DNA of 30,330 nt from a virus, in the IMG/VR virus record IMGVR_UViG_3300043331_000900, positions 1 to 30,330 of that record, one strand, 5' to 3'. The notes under the pieces were generated by a model. The model was not told where the DNA came from, searched no databases, and saw only the letters and a program-made list of their open reading frames with translations. This document shows positions 2,268-11,906 of the stretch, one piece after another; position 1 is the first letter of the stretch; the number at the start of each line of letters is the position of its first letter. Position numbers and translations under genes: made by a program.

Positions 2268-2382
2268 GCCGGGGCGATCCCGGCACCATGTCGGGGTGGC
2301 GCGATGCCACCGAGCTAAACGCAGGGGCAGGACCGTAGGGCCGGAGCGATTCCGGCGCCCGTTGTGACGGGGCGATCCCGTC
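2268..2382 (+). promoter_or_regulatory. Array of four GCGAT-loop hairpins in the capsid mRNA leader
   Basis: Four 17-nt hairpins at 2268-2284, 2295-2311, 2340-2356 and 2366-2382. Each has a perfect 6-bp stem and the same five-base loop GCGAT. The stems differ but keep pairing: GCCGGG/CCCGGC, GGTGGC/GCCACC, GCCGGA/TCCGGC and GACGGG/CCCGTC. The array fills the gap between the scaffold stop and the major capsid start, where I see no coding frame. Conserved loops with compensatory stem changes are the signature of a structure recognised as RNA. The ligand is unknown. Confidence 0.75.
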
Positions 2383-2461: not shown

Positions 2462-3418
2462 ATGCCTGCGATCTCGATGATGGAAGCGGCGAAGCTGGCG
2501 CTGAACAACGGCGAGACCAAGCGCGCCGGCGTCATCGCCACGTTCGCCCGCGCGTCAGCCTGGCTTGCGAACCTCCCGTTCGCCGACATCCCGGGCAACT
2601 CCTACGCGTACGACCAGGAAGCGGTGCTGCCGGGCATCGCGTTCCGCGGCCTGAACGAGGCCTACATCTCGTCCGCCGGCATTGTCAATCCGCAGGCCGA
2701 GGTGCTGCGCATTGCGGGCGGTGACCTCACCGTCGATCCGGCCAACGTCAAGATGTTCGGGCCGGGCGTGCGGGCGACCCACGAGACGCTGAAGGCCAAG
2801 GCGCTCGCGGCCACCCTGTCCAGCAAGGTGATCAAGGGCGACTCGATCACCGAGCCGCGCGAATTCGACGGCCTGCAGGCCCGCATCCCGTTCGGCTCCT
2901 CGCAGCTCGTCGCGGCGGGCACGACGGACAACGGCGACCCGCTGTCGCTCTTCCTGCTCGACCAGCTGATCGGCAAGGTCAGCGGGCCGAACCGCCAGTT
3001 GTGGATGAACAAGACGATGATCCAGCGCATCACGCAGGCCGCGCGCAAGAGCGACGTCGGCGGCTTCGTGATGTGGCGCCCCGACGAGTTCGGGCGTCAG
3101 ATCCCGACCTACAACGGCCTGCCGATGGTCGAGCCGTACCCGGAGAACGACGGCGTCGAGCCGCTCGCCTTCGACGAGCAGGGCGACGTCGGCGGGACGC
3201 CGGGCGGCACCACGTCGACCTCGATCTACTGCGTGTCCCTCGGGGATGGCTACCTGCGCGGCATCCAGAACGGGGCGATGGACGTGCGCGATCTGGGTGA
3301 GTCGGACCAGTCGCCGCTCCTGACGACCCGCGTTGAGTGGCTGGTGTCGCTCGTCGCCGAACATCCGAAGTGCATCGCCCGGCTGGGCGGGATCTCGAAC
3401 GCGCCCGTGGTGGCCTAA
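2462..3418 (+). CDS. Major capsid protein
   Basis: A 318-residue structural protein, presumably HK97-fold, that forms the head shell. It begins MPAISMMEAAKLALNNGETKRAGVI and continues with the typical N-terminal pattern of this capsid family (a short helix, then WLANLPFADIPGNSYAYDQE). The end is VEWLVSLVAEHPKCIARLGGISNAPVVA, matching the common capsid ending in which a final strand contains ARL.GI. Its position after the scaffold and before the decoration and cement genes supports the call. The start is ATG 2462 with GAGGA at 2451-2455. Codon use is strongly G/C-ending. The 201-bp leader holds the hairpin array, so its translation or mRNA stability may be controlled there. Family assignment is by pattern, not search. 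Confidence 0.85.
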   Translation: MPAISMMEAAKLALNNGETKRAGVIATFARASAWLANLPFADIPGNSYAYDQEAVLPGIAFRGLNEAYISSAGIVNPQAEVLRIAGGDLTVDPANVKMFGPGVRATHETLKAKALAATLSSKVIKGDSITEPREFDGLQARIPFGSSQLVAAGTTDNGDPLSLFLLDQLIGKVSGPNRQLWMNKTMIQRITQAARKSDVGGFVMWRPDEFGRQIPTYNGLPMVEPYPENDGVEPLAFDEQGDVGGTPGGTTSTSIYCVSLGDGYLRGIQNGAMDVRDLGESDQSPLLTTRVEWLVSLVAEHPKCIARLGGISNAPVVA

Positions 3419-4316: not shown

Positions 4317-4589
4317 ATGATCAAGACGCCCGATGGCAAGGTGTTGCTCTGGGGTCCGGACAGTCAGCAGCGCGAGCACTGGCCGATCGACGCCCGGGGC
4401 ATGTTGCGCGAACGCACGAAGGACGGCCAGCCGGTCTACTCGACGGAGCCACCGGAGGGCACGGAGCCGAAACTCCCCCCGATGCCTCCCCGGGTCGTCG
4501 GGGCGCCCAAGGTGGCGCGCGCCCAGGTGTTTGAAGCCCCGCCCGAGCTCGCCGCGGACCCGAAGCCGCGGCGAGGGAAGGCTGAATAG
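4317..4589 (+). CDS. Small hypothetical head-region protein
   Basis: A 90-residue soluble protein. The N-terminal 45 residues (IKTPDGKVLLWGPDSQQREHWPIDARGML) look like a small folded unit. From about residue 42 on the chain is Pro/Glu-rich and probably disordered, ending in basic residues (PKPRRGKAE). ATG 4317 is preceded by GGAAAGGA about 12 nt upstream. The stop overlaps the GTG start of the adaptor gene by one base (TAGTG), so the two are translationally coupled. I do not recognise the family. By position it may be a virion or assembly accessory protein. Confidence 0.6.
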   Translation: MIKTPDGKVLLWGPDSQQREHWPIDARGMLRERTKDGQPVYSTEPPEGTEPKLPPMPPRVVGAPKVARAQVFEAPPELAADPKPRRGKAE

Positions 4590-5143
4590 TGGCGATCACG
4601 ATCCAGGCGACGCCGGGCCATGCCCAGGCGAACTCCTACGCGACCGAAGCCGAGTACCTCGCGCGGGCGGAAACCCGGCTCAACCTGCCGTCCTCGGTCA
4701 ATACGACGGGGACGGGCAGTCTCACGGACACCGAAAAGAAAGCGCTGATCGAGGCGCAGCGCGAACTGACCACGATGGTGTGGAAGGGCACGCGCACCAC
4801 CAGTACGCAGGCACTCGCCTGGCCGCGCCAGGACGCCCCGGATCCCGACGCCCCCGGGATCTACGGTCTCACCGATCCCGACGACTTGTACTTCGACGAT
4901 ACCGAAGTCCCGCTCCGCGTCAGGGACGCGCAGCTCGAGCTCGCGTTCGAGTTCCTGCGCGCGGGCACGAGCGACCTCGCGGCGGCGGATCCTAACACCG
5001 GCGTCGCGCAAAAGACGGTCGACATCCTCACGACGCGGTGGTTCGAGCACCAGCGCCCGACTGGGCTCGGGCGGTTCCCCCGGATTCTCGTGCTGATCAC
5101 CCCGCTCCTCGAAGGCACGGGCCTCGAGGTCGTGCGGACCTGA
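4589..5143 (+). CDS. Head-tail connector (adaptor)-like protein
   Basis: A 184-residue protein of the group often labelled DnaT-like or head-tail adaptor in phages. Hallmarks are GHAQANSYATEAEYLARAETRLNL at the N-terminus (the ANSY..AEY pattern), KKALIEAQRELTTMVWKG in the middle, the conserved QALAWPRQDAPDPD, and VPLRVRDAQLELAFEFLRAG toward the C-terminus. In related phages this protein sits under the portal and starts the connector. It uses a GTG start overlapping the previous stop, with GGAAGG upstream. The next connector genes (head closure, neck) are unusually far away, at 11.9 kb. The name DnaT-like does not imply a replication role here. Confidence 0.65.
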   Translation: MAITIQATPGHAQANSYATEAEYLARAETRLNLPSSVNTTGTGSLTDTEKKALIEAQRELTTMVWKGTRTTSTQALAWPRQDAPDPDAPGIYGLTDPDDLYFDDTEVPLRVRDAQLELAFEFLRAGTSDLAAADPNTGVAQKTVDILTTRWFEHQRPTGLGRFPRILVLITPLLEGTGLEVVRT

Positions 5144-9632: not shown

Positions 9633-11906
9633 ATGGCGGCGCGGTTCGATAGTGCGGCGGAGTCCCACACCGGGACCACGGGCTCAGCGAGCGAGGCATC
9701 GTTCTCCTGGACATTGACGCCCGTAGTCGCGCGTCTCCGCGGTGTCTTGGTCTTCACCTTCGTCAATGCCAACGCCGACGACGCCACCGCTGTCACGGTG
9801 GGTGGCGTCCCCGCGACCGCTGTGGGCAGCGGCCGCGCCGTCGATACGGCGGGCGAGGCAGGCGACTGTAAAGCGTGGTTCGTCGGGAAGGACCTGCCGC
9901 CCGGCGCCCTGTCCATCGTCGTGACGCGCAACAACAACGCCAACGTGATGTACGCGGTCGCGATCGGGATTGACGCCGACCGCGACACGGAGATCAAAGG
10001 CACGCCCTCGCTGATCAGCGAGAACGACACGTTAGCCGAGGTTGCGGTCGATGCGGGCGAGGTCGGGCACGCGTTGCGCTTCGCCGGCGTGAACTCGGGG
10101 CTCTCGGCGGTGCCAGCGGCGGGGGCGAGCTCCACAGCCGTGCTGGGCATCGACTTCGGCCTACGGGTGATCGGCGTCGTGCGGGAGACCAATGGGGGCG
10201 CGGGCTCGCGGAGCGTGGGCTTCTCGTCCGGCACGAGCGACGATCGTGCGGCGGTGCATCTCGCGGTCGGTGAGGTCGTCGAGGCGGCAGGTCTGCGTCA
10301 CGACCGCCCGCAAGGTCGGACGCCAGTCCCGAGTGATGGCGTAGCCCCCGTCGTGGGTCGTCGTCGCCCGGCCCCGATTGGACGGCCGGGCCCGGGCCAT
10401 GTCGGGCTCGGGGTGTTTAATCCGCGCATCGAGGAAGGCGGCTCGCAGGGCCTGAGCGCGCAGGCGGCGCTCTTGGAAGCCAGTGCGACCATCGGTGTCT
10501 CCGCTACGGCAGCGTTGACGACGGAGCTCACGATGGCGGGCGCCGCGTCAGTGGTGTTTACGGGCGCCGCCGCGCTCACGACCGAACAGACGCTGGCGGC
10601 GACCGTCACCGTGGCGCTCAGCGGCGCGGGTGCGCTGACTACGGAGATCACAGTCGCGGCTGGGGCGATGGTGGCACTGTCGGCCACGGCGGCGCTCACA
10701 ACCGAGATCCCCCTCGCTGGGGCGGCGACGGTGGCGATCACGGCGGCGGCCGAACTCACCACCTCTACCGTGACGCATGAGGCCGGCGTTGAGCCCTCGA
10801 TCGGCCGCCGGCCGCCCGGACCGCTGGGGCGTGTTCCGAGTCCCGTCGGGATGGGCTTCCTGACGAAAAATCAGATCCAGAAACGTGGTCTCGATTCAGC
10901 GGCGCAGGCGGCGCTATTTGAAGCGAGTGCCACGATCGCCGTCAGTGCCACGGCAACCCTCACGACCGAGATCGCAATGGCGACGGCGGTCACGGTGGCG
11001 ATCACCGGCGCGGGTGCGCTGACTACGGAGATCACACTCGCGGCTGGGGCGATGGTGGCACTGTCGGCCACGGCGGCGCTCACAACCGAGCTCCCCCTCG
11101 TGGCCAGCGCGACGCTCGCGTTCGCCAGCGTGGGCGACCTGACAGTCCTCTCGAATGATCGCCAAGGCGGCGTCTCGGACGCGCGGAAGTCGCCGCCGAT
11201 CGGCGTCCCGGGCCCGGGGCGGGGCGGCATCGTCACGCTGAACCCAGGCCGCCACTGGAAGATCGCCGCCACCTCGATCGTCAACGACACGACGCTGGCG
11301 GCGGCGGCGCAGATCACGCTCTCCGCGAGTGCCGCGCTCACGACCGAAATCCGGATGGCCGCCACGGCGTCGGTGACGGTGAGCGGTACGGCCGCCCTGA
11401 CGACGGAAATCCGAATGGCTGGCGCGGTGAGCGTCGTCATCACCGGCGCCGCAGCCCTCACCACGGGCAGTGAGCTCAGTGCGGCCACGACGATCGTCGT
11501 CAGCGGGATCGGCACCCTGACGACGGAGATCCGGCTCGCGGGAGCGGCGACCGTGGTCTTCGGCGGGATCGGGTCCTTGGGCCTCGGGGCGGAGTTCGCG
11601 GCGGCGGCGACGGTGTCGGTCACCACGGTCGGCGCGTTGGACACGGCGATCACGCTGACTGGGGCAGCCGCGCTCACGCTGACGGCAGGCGCCGCGCTCA
11701 CGACCGAGATCCGCTTCGCCGGGATCGCACAGCTTGCCCTCGGTGCCACGGGCGACCTGGTGCTCGTGGCGCCGGGCGTGCCGGTCGTGCTCGATGGCAA
11801 GTACCGCGCGGAGCATCGGTCCGCGTTCGCCGACGTCACGGCGGCGCAGGGCTTTGCGGCGGAGCATGCCTCGGCGCTGCGGGACGTGACCGAGGCGGGC
11901 GTATGA
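9633..11906 (+). CDS. Large fibre-like protein with 20-residue tandem repeats
   Basis: A 757-residue protein with three parts. Residues 1-210 form a beta domain (ARFDSAAESHTGTTGSASEASFSWT ... VGFSSGTSDDRAAVHLAVGE). Three modules follow, each opened by an Arg/Pro/Gly-rich linker of similar design (P-IG-PGPG--G---N) at about 243-275, 388-412 and 512-540. After each linker comes an array of 20-residue repeats, typically ALTTEI-LAGAATVA--G-G, with about four, three and six to seven units. Such hydrophobic, Thr-rich beta repeats suggest an extended stack or fibre shaft. The last 40 residues form a separate short tail (YRAEHRSAFADVTAAQGFAAEHASAL). It ends in ATGA overlap with the head-closure gene. 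Function inferred as fibre/appendage. Confidence 0.6.
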   Translation: MAARFDSAAESHTGTTGSASEASFSWTLTPVVARLRGVLVFTFVNANADDATAVTVGGVPATAVGSGRAVDTAGEAGDCKAWFVGKDLPPGALSIVVTRNNNANVMYAVAIGIDADRDTEIKGTPSLISENDTLAEVAVDAGEVGHALRFAGVNSGLSAVPAAGASSTAVLGIDFGLRVIGVVRETNGGAGSRSVGFSSGTSDDRAAVHLAVGEVVEAAGLRHDRPQGRTPVPSDGVAPVVGRRRPAPIGRPGPGHVGLGVFNPRIEEGGSQGLSAQAALLEASATIGVSATAALTTELTMAGAASVVFTGAAALTTEQTLAATVTVALSGAGALTTEITVAAGAMVALSATAALTTEIPLAGAATVAITAAAELTTSTVTHEAGVEPSIGRRPPGPLGRVPSPVGMGFLTKNQIQKRGLDSAAQAALFEASATIAVSATATLTTEIAMATAVTVAITGAGALTTEITLAAGAMVALSATAALTTELPLVASATLAFASVGDLTVLSNDRQGGVSDARKSPPIGVPGPGRGGIVTLNPGRHWKIAATSIVNDTTLAAAAQITLSASAALTTEIRMAATASVTVSGTAALTTEIRMAGAVSVVITGAAALTTGSELSAATTIVVSGIGTLTTEIRLAGAATVVFGGIGSLGLGAEFAAAATVSVTTVGALDTAITLTGAAALTLTAGAALTTEIRFAGIAQLALGATGDLVLVAPGVPVVLDGKYRAEHRSAFADVTAAQGFAAEHASALRDVTEAGV
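10622..11100 (+). repeat. Recent 95-bp in-frame duplication inside the repeat protein
   Basis: Bases 10622-10716 and 11006-11100 match at 93 of 95 positions (differences at 10653/11037 and 10707/11091). The copies are 384 bp apart, exactly 128 codons, and encode the same GAGALTTEIT...ALTTE segment in two different modules. Neighbouring repeats are far more diverged, pointing to recent gene conversion or duplication. Confidence 0.85.

Follow-up and report, generated by a model that had tools for sequence, protein, structure and literature searches.

Head genes and hairpins of the window

The window, by which we mean the whole stretch of DNA analysed (30,330 bases), is a phage record in which an intein-containing MuF-like head gene is followed by a scaffold gene, a 201-nt leader and the major capsid gene. 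A PHROG scan of the scaffold protein at E ≤ 0.001 gave no match; its relatives match phrog_206. Four perfect 6-bp hairpins with the loop GCGAT lie at 2268–2382, between the scaffold and major capsid genes. The features are as follows.

1586–2260, + strand: scaffold gene, its GTG start inferred from a conserved N-terminal motif; candidate source of a repressor
2268–2284, + strand: hairpin 1, GCCGGG-GCGAT-CCCGGC, with covarying counterparts in the related loci L037, L024 and L038
2295–2311, + strand: hairpin 2, GGTGGC-GCGAT-GCCACC
2340–2356, + strand: hairpin 3 (the putative switch hairpin), GCCGGA-GCGAT-TCCGGC, with an alternative partner at 2394–2414
2366–2382, + strand: hairpin 4, GACGGG-GCGAT-CCCGTC, extended to 2365–2383 by a seventh T.G pair and kept inside the long-range helix described below
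2417–2460, + strand: predicted hairpin at the capsid ribosome-binding site, from the minimum-energy fold; it pairs GAGGA at 2451–2455, the likely Shine–Dalgarno sequence
2462–3418, + strand: major capsid protein gene (phrog_212 major head protein, E 4.8e-59)

Two neighbouring genes have peculiarities of their own. An intein splits the MuF-like head morphogenesis gene at 45–1487 (Pfam Intein_splicing, residues 153–453), and the gene at 4589–5143 is a DnaT-like ssDNA-binding protein according to Pfam and a head–tail adaptor (Ad1) according to PHROGs; the Pfam name looks misleading.

The initial annotation had described four 17-nt GCGAT hairpins with 6-bp stems, and this held. A chance origin is excluded by a Markov control: of 300 first-order sequences of the window's composition, none placed three or more hairpins with 6-bp stems and a shared 5-nt loop inside a stretch of 100 nt. 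No further GCGAT hairpin with a 6-bp stem exists in the window, and the sole additional 5-bp one (10993–11007) is distant from the array. The claim that the four stems are independent held only in part, as hairpins 1, 3 and 4 sit in a degenerate 28-nt direct repeat of 75–82% identity. Because of this shared repeat the array looks, from sequence alone, like a set of old duplicates that have probably diverged with their pairing kept. A 21-nt inverted repeat involving hairpin 3 had been missed, and a suggested pairing of the loops with GCGATCGC at the 3′ end of the scaffold gene found no support; GCGATCGC lies within codons and is not kept in relatives.

The window leader folds at −121.5 kcal/mol (z −5.75 relative to shuffles). 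Looser counterparts of the 2417–2460 hairpin are seen in relatives, by eye only and without a covariation test. A terminator scan found no intrinsic terminator on the + strand of 1500–2600. An Rfam 15 scan of the window gave zero gathering-level matches; at relaxed cut-offs (E ≤ 10 for the window leader, E ≤ 5 for seven relatives), only sub-threshold chance matches fell over the arrays, and the two real Rfam matches in L034 (tRNA and suhB) are both outside its array. A blastn search of the window leader against phages returned short chance matches only. That the capsid gene is the one regulated by the array in this phage is an inference, made without regulation data.

Similar hairpins precede head genes in many phages

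One long pattern copied from the window matched nothing in IMG/VR. A relaxed pattern of three hairpins with inner GG/CC pairs returned 29 stretches, and real hairpin arrays were present in 4 of these loci (3 distinct), all preceding a scaffold or capsid gene. In L024 and L027 the array is between the scaffold and capsid genes (L129, a Thermosynechococcus MAG contig, has the same sequence as L027), and in L014 and L034, which are identical in sequence, it precedes the scaffold gene. The capsid protein of L014 is phrog_247, not phrog_212. A second relaxed pattern returned at least 120 stretches and one new three-hairpin cluster, in L249, which was not counted as the same element because its hairpin arms are nearly identical. 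This region (L249:4500–4650, minus strand) contains three GTGAT hairpins and two similar units with another loop, and is probably an unrelated repeat.

We then considered a sample collected by capsid similarity, blind to hairpins, and consisting of 80 IMG/VR loci, 36 genome loci and four more, which make 119 since L004 recurs. Removal of duplicates by a 60-nt key left 110 loci; related loci remain among them, so that the counts are not independent events. GNGAY hairpins with a stem of ≥ 6 bp numbered 56 in 61.6 kb of leader zones, compared with 17 in 503.9 kb elsewhere, and 33 of the 110 loci had at least one in a leader zone. They peak ∼800–1000 nt before the capsid gene, which is just before the scaffold gene, and at 0–300 nt before the capsid gene; the remaining 100-nt bins hold 0–4 each, and the reverse-complement loop has no peak. 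As the leader zones were defined on the same 110 loci that were counted, the ratio is descriptive only.

An independent repeat was provided by a second sample of 50 loci, built on the unrelated capsid family phrog_247. Here, GNGA[CTG] hairpins (stem ≥ 5) numbered 49 in 17.0 kb before the scaffold gene vs. 10 in 182.9 kb downstream, and 28/50 loci carried one before the scaffold gene. The control loop [ACT]NGA[CTG] gave 6 before the scaffold gene and 55 downstream; [CAG]TCNC gave 8 and 9, some of which may be the same structures seen from the opposite strand.

In general, GNGAN hairpins occur in one to four copies, on the coding strand, immediately before one or both of the scaffold and capsid genes, and low-GC contigs (37–41%) also carry them. 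Clusters of ≥ 3 GNGAY hairpins numbered 14 and those of the reverse-complement loop 4, a figure that in part reflects the former; such a strand bias is expected if G.U pairs are used. The comparison shows that GNGAN hairpins are kept as RNA structure before head genes across phages. The proposal that selection has kept a repeated RNA structure in the capsid leader as a binding site is thus supported by the arrays found before the capsid and scaffold genes of relatives, although binding itself remains inferred. The initial annotation nevertheless drew the element too tightly: GCGAT is only one form of a GNGAN loop, and the array belongs to the scaffold gene no less than to the capsid gene.

Requirements of the loop and the stem

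The frequency with which a given loop is closed by a stem of ≥ 5 bp was compared between leader zones and elsewhere. For GNGAY it was 70/500 in leader zones vs. 39/4,682 elsewhere, and for GNGAG 16/274 vs. 15/1,625; GNGAA gave 6/314 and 29/2,285. Loops altered at G1 (22/1,338 vs. 117/13,468), at G3 (GNAAY; 5/450 vs. 23/3,476) or at A4 (27/1,738 vs. 112/13,753) were enriched at most about twofold. The loop enrichment shows that positions G1, G3 and A4 are required. The second loop base tends to be constant within a genome, being GCGAT throughout the window and GTGAT throughout L037.

Covariation was assessed on 68 of 96 distinct units, most of those excluded having outer pairs that were weak or not formed. 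Each of the six pairs varies on both sides, with 171 such cells vs. 50.5 in shuffles, and the covariation score was 1.174, compared with 0.233 for shuffled and 0.13–0.22 for slid alignments. All units were preselected for a stem of ≥ 5 bp and are therefore 98.8% paired by construction, so that only the pair diversity and the slide controls are informative. Changes in the stem retain pairing, G.U pairs included. Relatives that keep pairing while the stem sequence changes had been named beforehand as the test of an RNA structure, and they were found.

Hairpins at the scaffold start site

A recurrent order is seen in scaffold leaders: a TTGAC promoter-like box, a terminator-like hairpin (followed in most by a T run), one or two GNGAY hairpins, a last GNGAG hairpin and the scaffold start. 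The loop and 3′ arm of the last hairpin constitute the Shine–Dalgarno sequence. Promoter boxes and Shine–Dalgarno sequences were identified by eye. The same order is found in phrog_247 contigs of 37–47% GC. Start-site hairpins, whose stems are very diverse, include the following.

L096: TTGTACACC-GGGAG-GGTGTATGG
L085 and L111: CAACC-GGGAG-GGTTG
L063: CTACC-GGGAG-GGTAG
L073, L084 and L098: CACC-GAGAG-GGTG
L349 (phrog_247 set): TCAGC-GGGAG-GCTGA
L382 group (phrog_247 set): TCAAAC-GAGAG-GTTTGA, then ACATG (two bases before ATG)

L061 and L107 fit poorly in the scaffold-leader alignment, and in L107 the start codon is inside the hairpin loop. A GNGAN hairpin was located 2–22 nt before a candidate start in 45/90, compared with 6 sites for the reverse-complement loop; this figure is inflated, because GNGAT followed by G supplies an ATG. 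In the window, there is no GNGAN hairpin over a ribosome-binding site and none in the scaffold leader. In L003 (2055–2100), a terminator-like 16-bp hairpin before the scaffold gene has the loop GTGAG, as if operator loop and terminator had perhaps merged.

The options raised initially for the array included translation control and packaging. The former is favoured, as in many phages the ribosome-binding site of the scaffold gene lies within the last hairpin; a packaging role is less likely because the hairpins track the start sites of two mRNAs.

A predicted long-range helix in the window's clade

The 21-nt inverted repeat in the window leader is 95% complementary and is composed of two strands.

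2332–2352, + strand: 5′ strand of the long-range helix, holding the 5′ arm and loop of hairpin 3
2394–2414, + strand: 3′ strand of the long-range helix, with a conserved GAATCCC core

Their pairing (∼20 bp, −39.6 kcal/mol) encloses hairpin 4, and 0/300 shuffled partners reached so low an energy. A downstream strand of the CGAATCCC type was visible in 11/11 relatives tested. Against shuffled partners the pairing was clear in the window, L037, L040, L041 and L043 (0/300 each) and in L039 (2/300), weak in L057 (9/300), L024 and L038 (13 each) and L042 (32), and no better than shuffles in L036 (60/300) and L044 (153), where the script chose another hairpin as the best arm. Directly after the distant strand, L040, L041 and L043 have 5–6 T, which is terminator-like, whereas the window helix has no T run.

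Where the 5′ arm changes, the local arm changes with it and so does the distant strand (for example in L036, L039 and L040), which suggests two mutually exclusive states. An exchange between hairpin 3 and the long-range helix may therefore act as a switch in the window's clade; this is a possibility that we infer and have not shown.

Isolated phages and other loop classes

GNGAN hairpins are present in the head leaders of Bordetella phage FP1, Pseudomonas phage Epa5, Gordonia phage Meyran and Bradyrhizobium phage BDU-MI-1, the last with the loop GGGAT. Cyanophage PSS2 has weaker 3–4 bp GTGAT versions and one GAGAG hairpin. At the same places, the large siphophages phiCbK, RcXuper, Mwe-JY26, Bajun, Bambus, DSS3P8, Lacusarx and EliS-L02 carry hairpins with a GGT or GGG triloop; phiCbK has two before the scaffold gene and one before the capsid gene. 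The E. coli phages Seurat and JenK1 have ACGG hairpins on wholly different stems. Each phage has two ahead of the scaffold gene; ahead of the capsid gene, JenK1 has one and Seurat two, of which the script gave the second a 4-bp stem.

Two or more same-loop hairpins within the two 165-nt leader windows were found in 11/28 isolates, where shuffles gave an expectation of 0.12. Chance pairing may account for one or two of the 11 (L301, L295). The 28 do not include P22, nor phiK7B1 (L282), whose annotation is odd. Inspection of the leaders of SSU5, BUCTxx99, RHph_Y2_17_1, phiK7B1, Unity, Rowa and Sleepyhead, which have related capsids, revealed no arrays.

The loop class tracks phage lineage, in that cyanophage Mwe-JY26 has GGT like the Caulobacter phages and the cyanobacterial contig L129 has GCGAT. 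Because it differs by phage lineage and not by host group, the reader of the loop is probably phage-encoded.

Two further structures were noted. A single 8-bp hairpin with an NGG triloop lies ∼37 nt before the scaffold gene in both L299 and L300 (Jersey and Sciku phages); the two stems differ, and this is perhaps a further loop class. In phiCbK (L272), ∼115–255 nt before the capsid gene, there are two near-copies of a 10-bp hairpin, GTCACGAAAC-NCTG-GTTTCGTGAN, 140 nt apart.

Co-occurrence with a scaffold protein motif

An acidic N-terminal motif of ∼26 residues is present in the scaffold proteins of 52 of the 120 loci tested, these being the loci left after removal of duplicates, loci without a scaffold ORF (8/143) and short-leader loci. 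A GNGA[CTG] or GGT/GGG hairpin was found in 44/52 loci with the motif vs. 11/68 without it (Fisher p 1.9e-14), and in 12/120 stretches of a same-length capsid-gene control. The p-value is overstated, as the loci are related by descent. The scaffolds of L014, L027, FP1 and phiCbK are all phrog_206, despite the unrelated capsid of L014; a phrog_206 search of 399 genomes of one order gave three matches with E below 1e-10. We favour the scaffold over the capsid protein as the partner of the hairpins because of the motif–hairpin association and because L014, with its unrelated capsid, shares phrog_206.

Against this link, 8/52 motif-bearing loci have no hairpin, and the phrog_206 scaffold of L027/L129 is without the N-terminal motif. 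The C-terminal 60 residues of the scaffold are mildly basic in most, whereas the N-terminal motif is acidic. The acidic character of the motif and the lack of a recognised RNA-binding domain, in an analysis that did not extend to folds, leave room for the association to reflect mere co-inheritance of the head module.

A putative translational operator

A loop code and pairing that are both kept, at the starts of two genes whose products assemble together and overlapping the ribosome-binding site, lead us to a translational reading. We lean towards a multi-site RNA operator, bound by a phage-encoded protein and acting on translation of head genes, with both binder and regulation being inferred. 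In this model, the protein would bind GNGAN loops; the upstream hairpins would load or anchor it, and the start-site hairpin, when bound, would block the ribosome. Free, unassembled protein would thereby turn off further synthesis, and scaffold and capsid would be held in proportion. In the window's clade the operator would act before the capsid gene, where protein on hairpin 3 may shift the balance with the 2394–2414 helix and so change capsid output.

The likeliest binding protein is inferred to be the scaffold, in the absence of data on protein–RNA contact or regulation. That the scaffold is itself the reader, in an autogenous control, we offer only tentatively, as binding data are lacking and the case does not yet reach the probable. 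A bolder reading, for which our confidence is likewise limited, is that many tailed-phage lineages share a hitherto unnoticed class of head-gene operators, made of tandem hairpins with a constant, lineage-specific loop (GNGAN, GGT/GGG or ACGG), that through them the scaffold monitors its unassembled pool and adjusts the proportion of scaffold to capsid, that the window's clade has a bistable version, and that loop code and reader coevolve.

Alternative explanations

The same RNA operator might be read by a protein of the host, for example a ribosomal protein or a general RNA binder, through which translation or stability of the head mRNA is adjusted. The hosts are very different (Bordetella, Pseudomonas, Gordonia, Bradyrhizobium, cyanobacteria) and low-GC contigs are also involved, which a conserved host factor could explain. 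We consider this unlikely, because other loops (GGT/GGG, ACGG) occupy the same positions in other phage lineages, in related hosts too. CsrA needs GGA in the hairpin loop, and GCGAT, GTGAT and GAGAT loops contain no GGA, which argues against CsrA/RsmA as the reader. Control of transcription, with the hairpins and the long-range helix forming an attenuator or antiterminator, would fit the T runs after the helix in L040, L041 and L043, the terminator-like GTGAG hairpin of L003 and the terminator-like hairpins upstream of GNGAN hairpins in many scaffold leaders. However, the window helix lacks both a T run and a + strand terminator, and in many scaffold leaders the last hairpin covers a ribosome-binding site. 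Moreover, in scaffold leaders the terminator usually comes first and the hairpins second, so that the hairpins cannot act on it from upstream; this alternative is also improbable.

The hairpins could instead be mRNA stabilisers or nuclease processing sites without a specific ligand. They do precede the genes of the most abundant virion proteins, the low z-score of the window leader is compatible with such a role, and RNase III could cut at the 20-bp helix. Stability alone leaves unexplained the fixed G1, G3 and A4 (GNAAY and the like are not enriched) and the start-site hairpins, and we do not think this explanation likely. Least plausible, and very unlikely in our view, is a DNA-level element, whether operator palindromes, a mobile repeat or a packaging site. 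In its favour are the degenerate direct repeats of hairpins 1, 3 and 4 and the 21-nt inverted repeat; against it, the stem sequence is free while pairing is kept, G.U pairs included, and the hairpins track two gene starts in one strand sense.

It has long been asked how dsDNA phages balance the amounts of scaffold and capsid protein. The hairpins provide a concrete RNA element across distant hosts, present in the testable E. coli phages Seurat and JenK1, and, if the operator reading is true, new RNA–protein recognition pairs with changing loop specificity. Annotation pipelines miss the motif because its stems have no conserved sequence.

Comparison with known systems

No description of these hairpins was found in the literature searched, which was mostly open-access. 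The main text of the phiCbK genome paper contains neither ‘hairpin’ nor ‘stem-loop’ (PMC3556154), and a 2021 paper on structured RNAs of the human microbiome contains neither ‘capsid’ nor ‘hairpin’ (PMC8040213). One study is reported to list more than ten thousand structured-RNA candidates of viral and phage origin, and some of the leaders may be included there.

The free scaffold of P22 (gp8) lowers its own synthesis post-transcriptionally, an effect described decades ago; to our knowledge, no RNA target for it has been identified. The relevant sections of PMC12005531 do not mention this autoregulation. P22 gene 8 starts 13 nt after gene 1, with no hairpin operator visible and no room for an array, and P22 thus failed as a positive control.

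Lambda-type boxB (nut) and HK022 put RNA are small phage hairpin signals, boxB having a purine-rich pentaloop. They act on downstream terminators, whereas the hairpins described here follow a terminator and are located at head-gene starts, so that the likeness to boxB does not extend to position. The MS2/R17 coat protein operator is a hairpin over a ribosome-binding site through which a virion protein controls synthesis. It belongs to an RNA phage and is a single site on the replicase gene with a different loop; here, multiple sites are found in dsDNA tailed phages.

The operator of gene 43 (DNA polymerase) in T4 and RB69 comprises a hairpin of 16–18 bases, ∼40 bases upstream of the start codon, together with the ribosome-binding site, and its loop bases are conserved and varied between relatives (PMC3014915). 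The GNGAN hairpins resemble it as conserved-loop hairpins in the leader of a putatively regulated gene. Overlap with the ribosome-binding site, a trait of the T4 gp43 type, is a less certain likeness, being present in many scaffold leaders and absent from the window. The gene 43 operator is one hairpin on a replication gene; here there are 2–4 hairpins on head genes, with a GNGAN loop, in phages whose hosts belong to several phyla. As far as our searches go, the kind of device is known, and the hairpin family, its breadth and its changing loop appear to be new.
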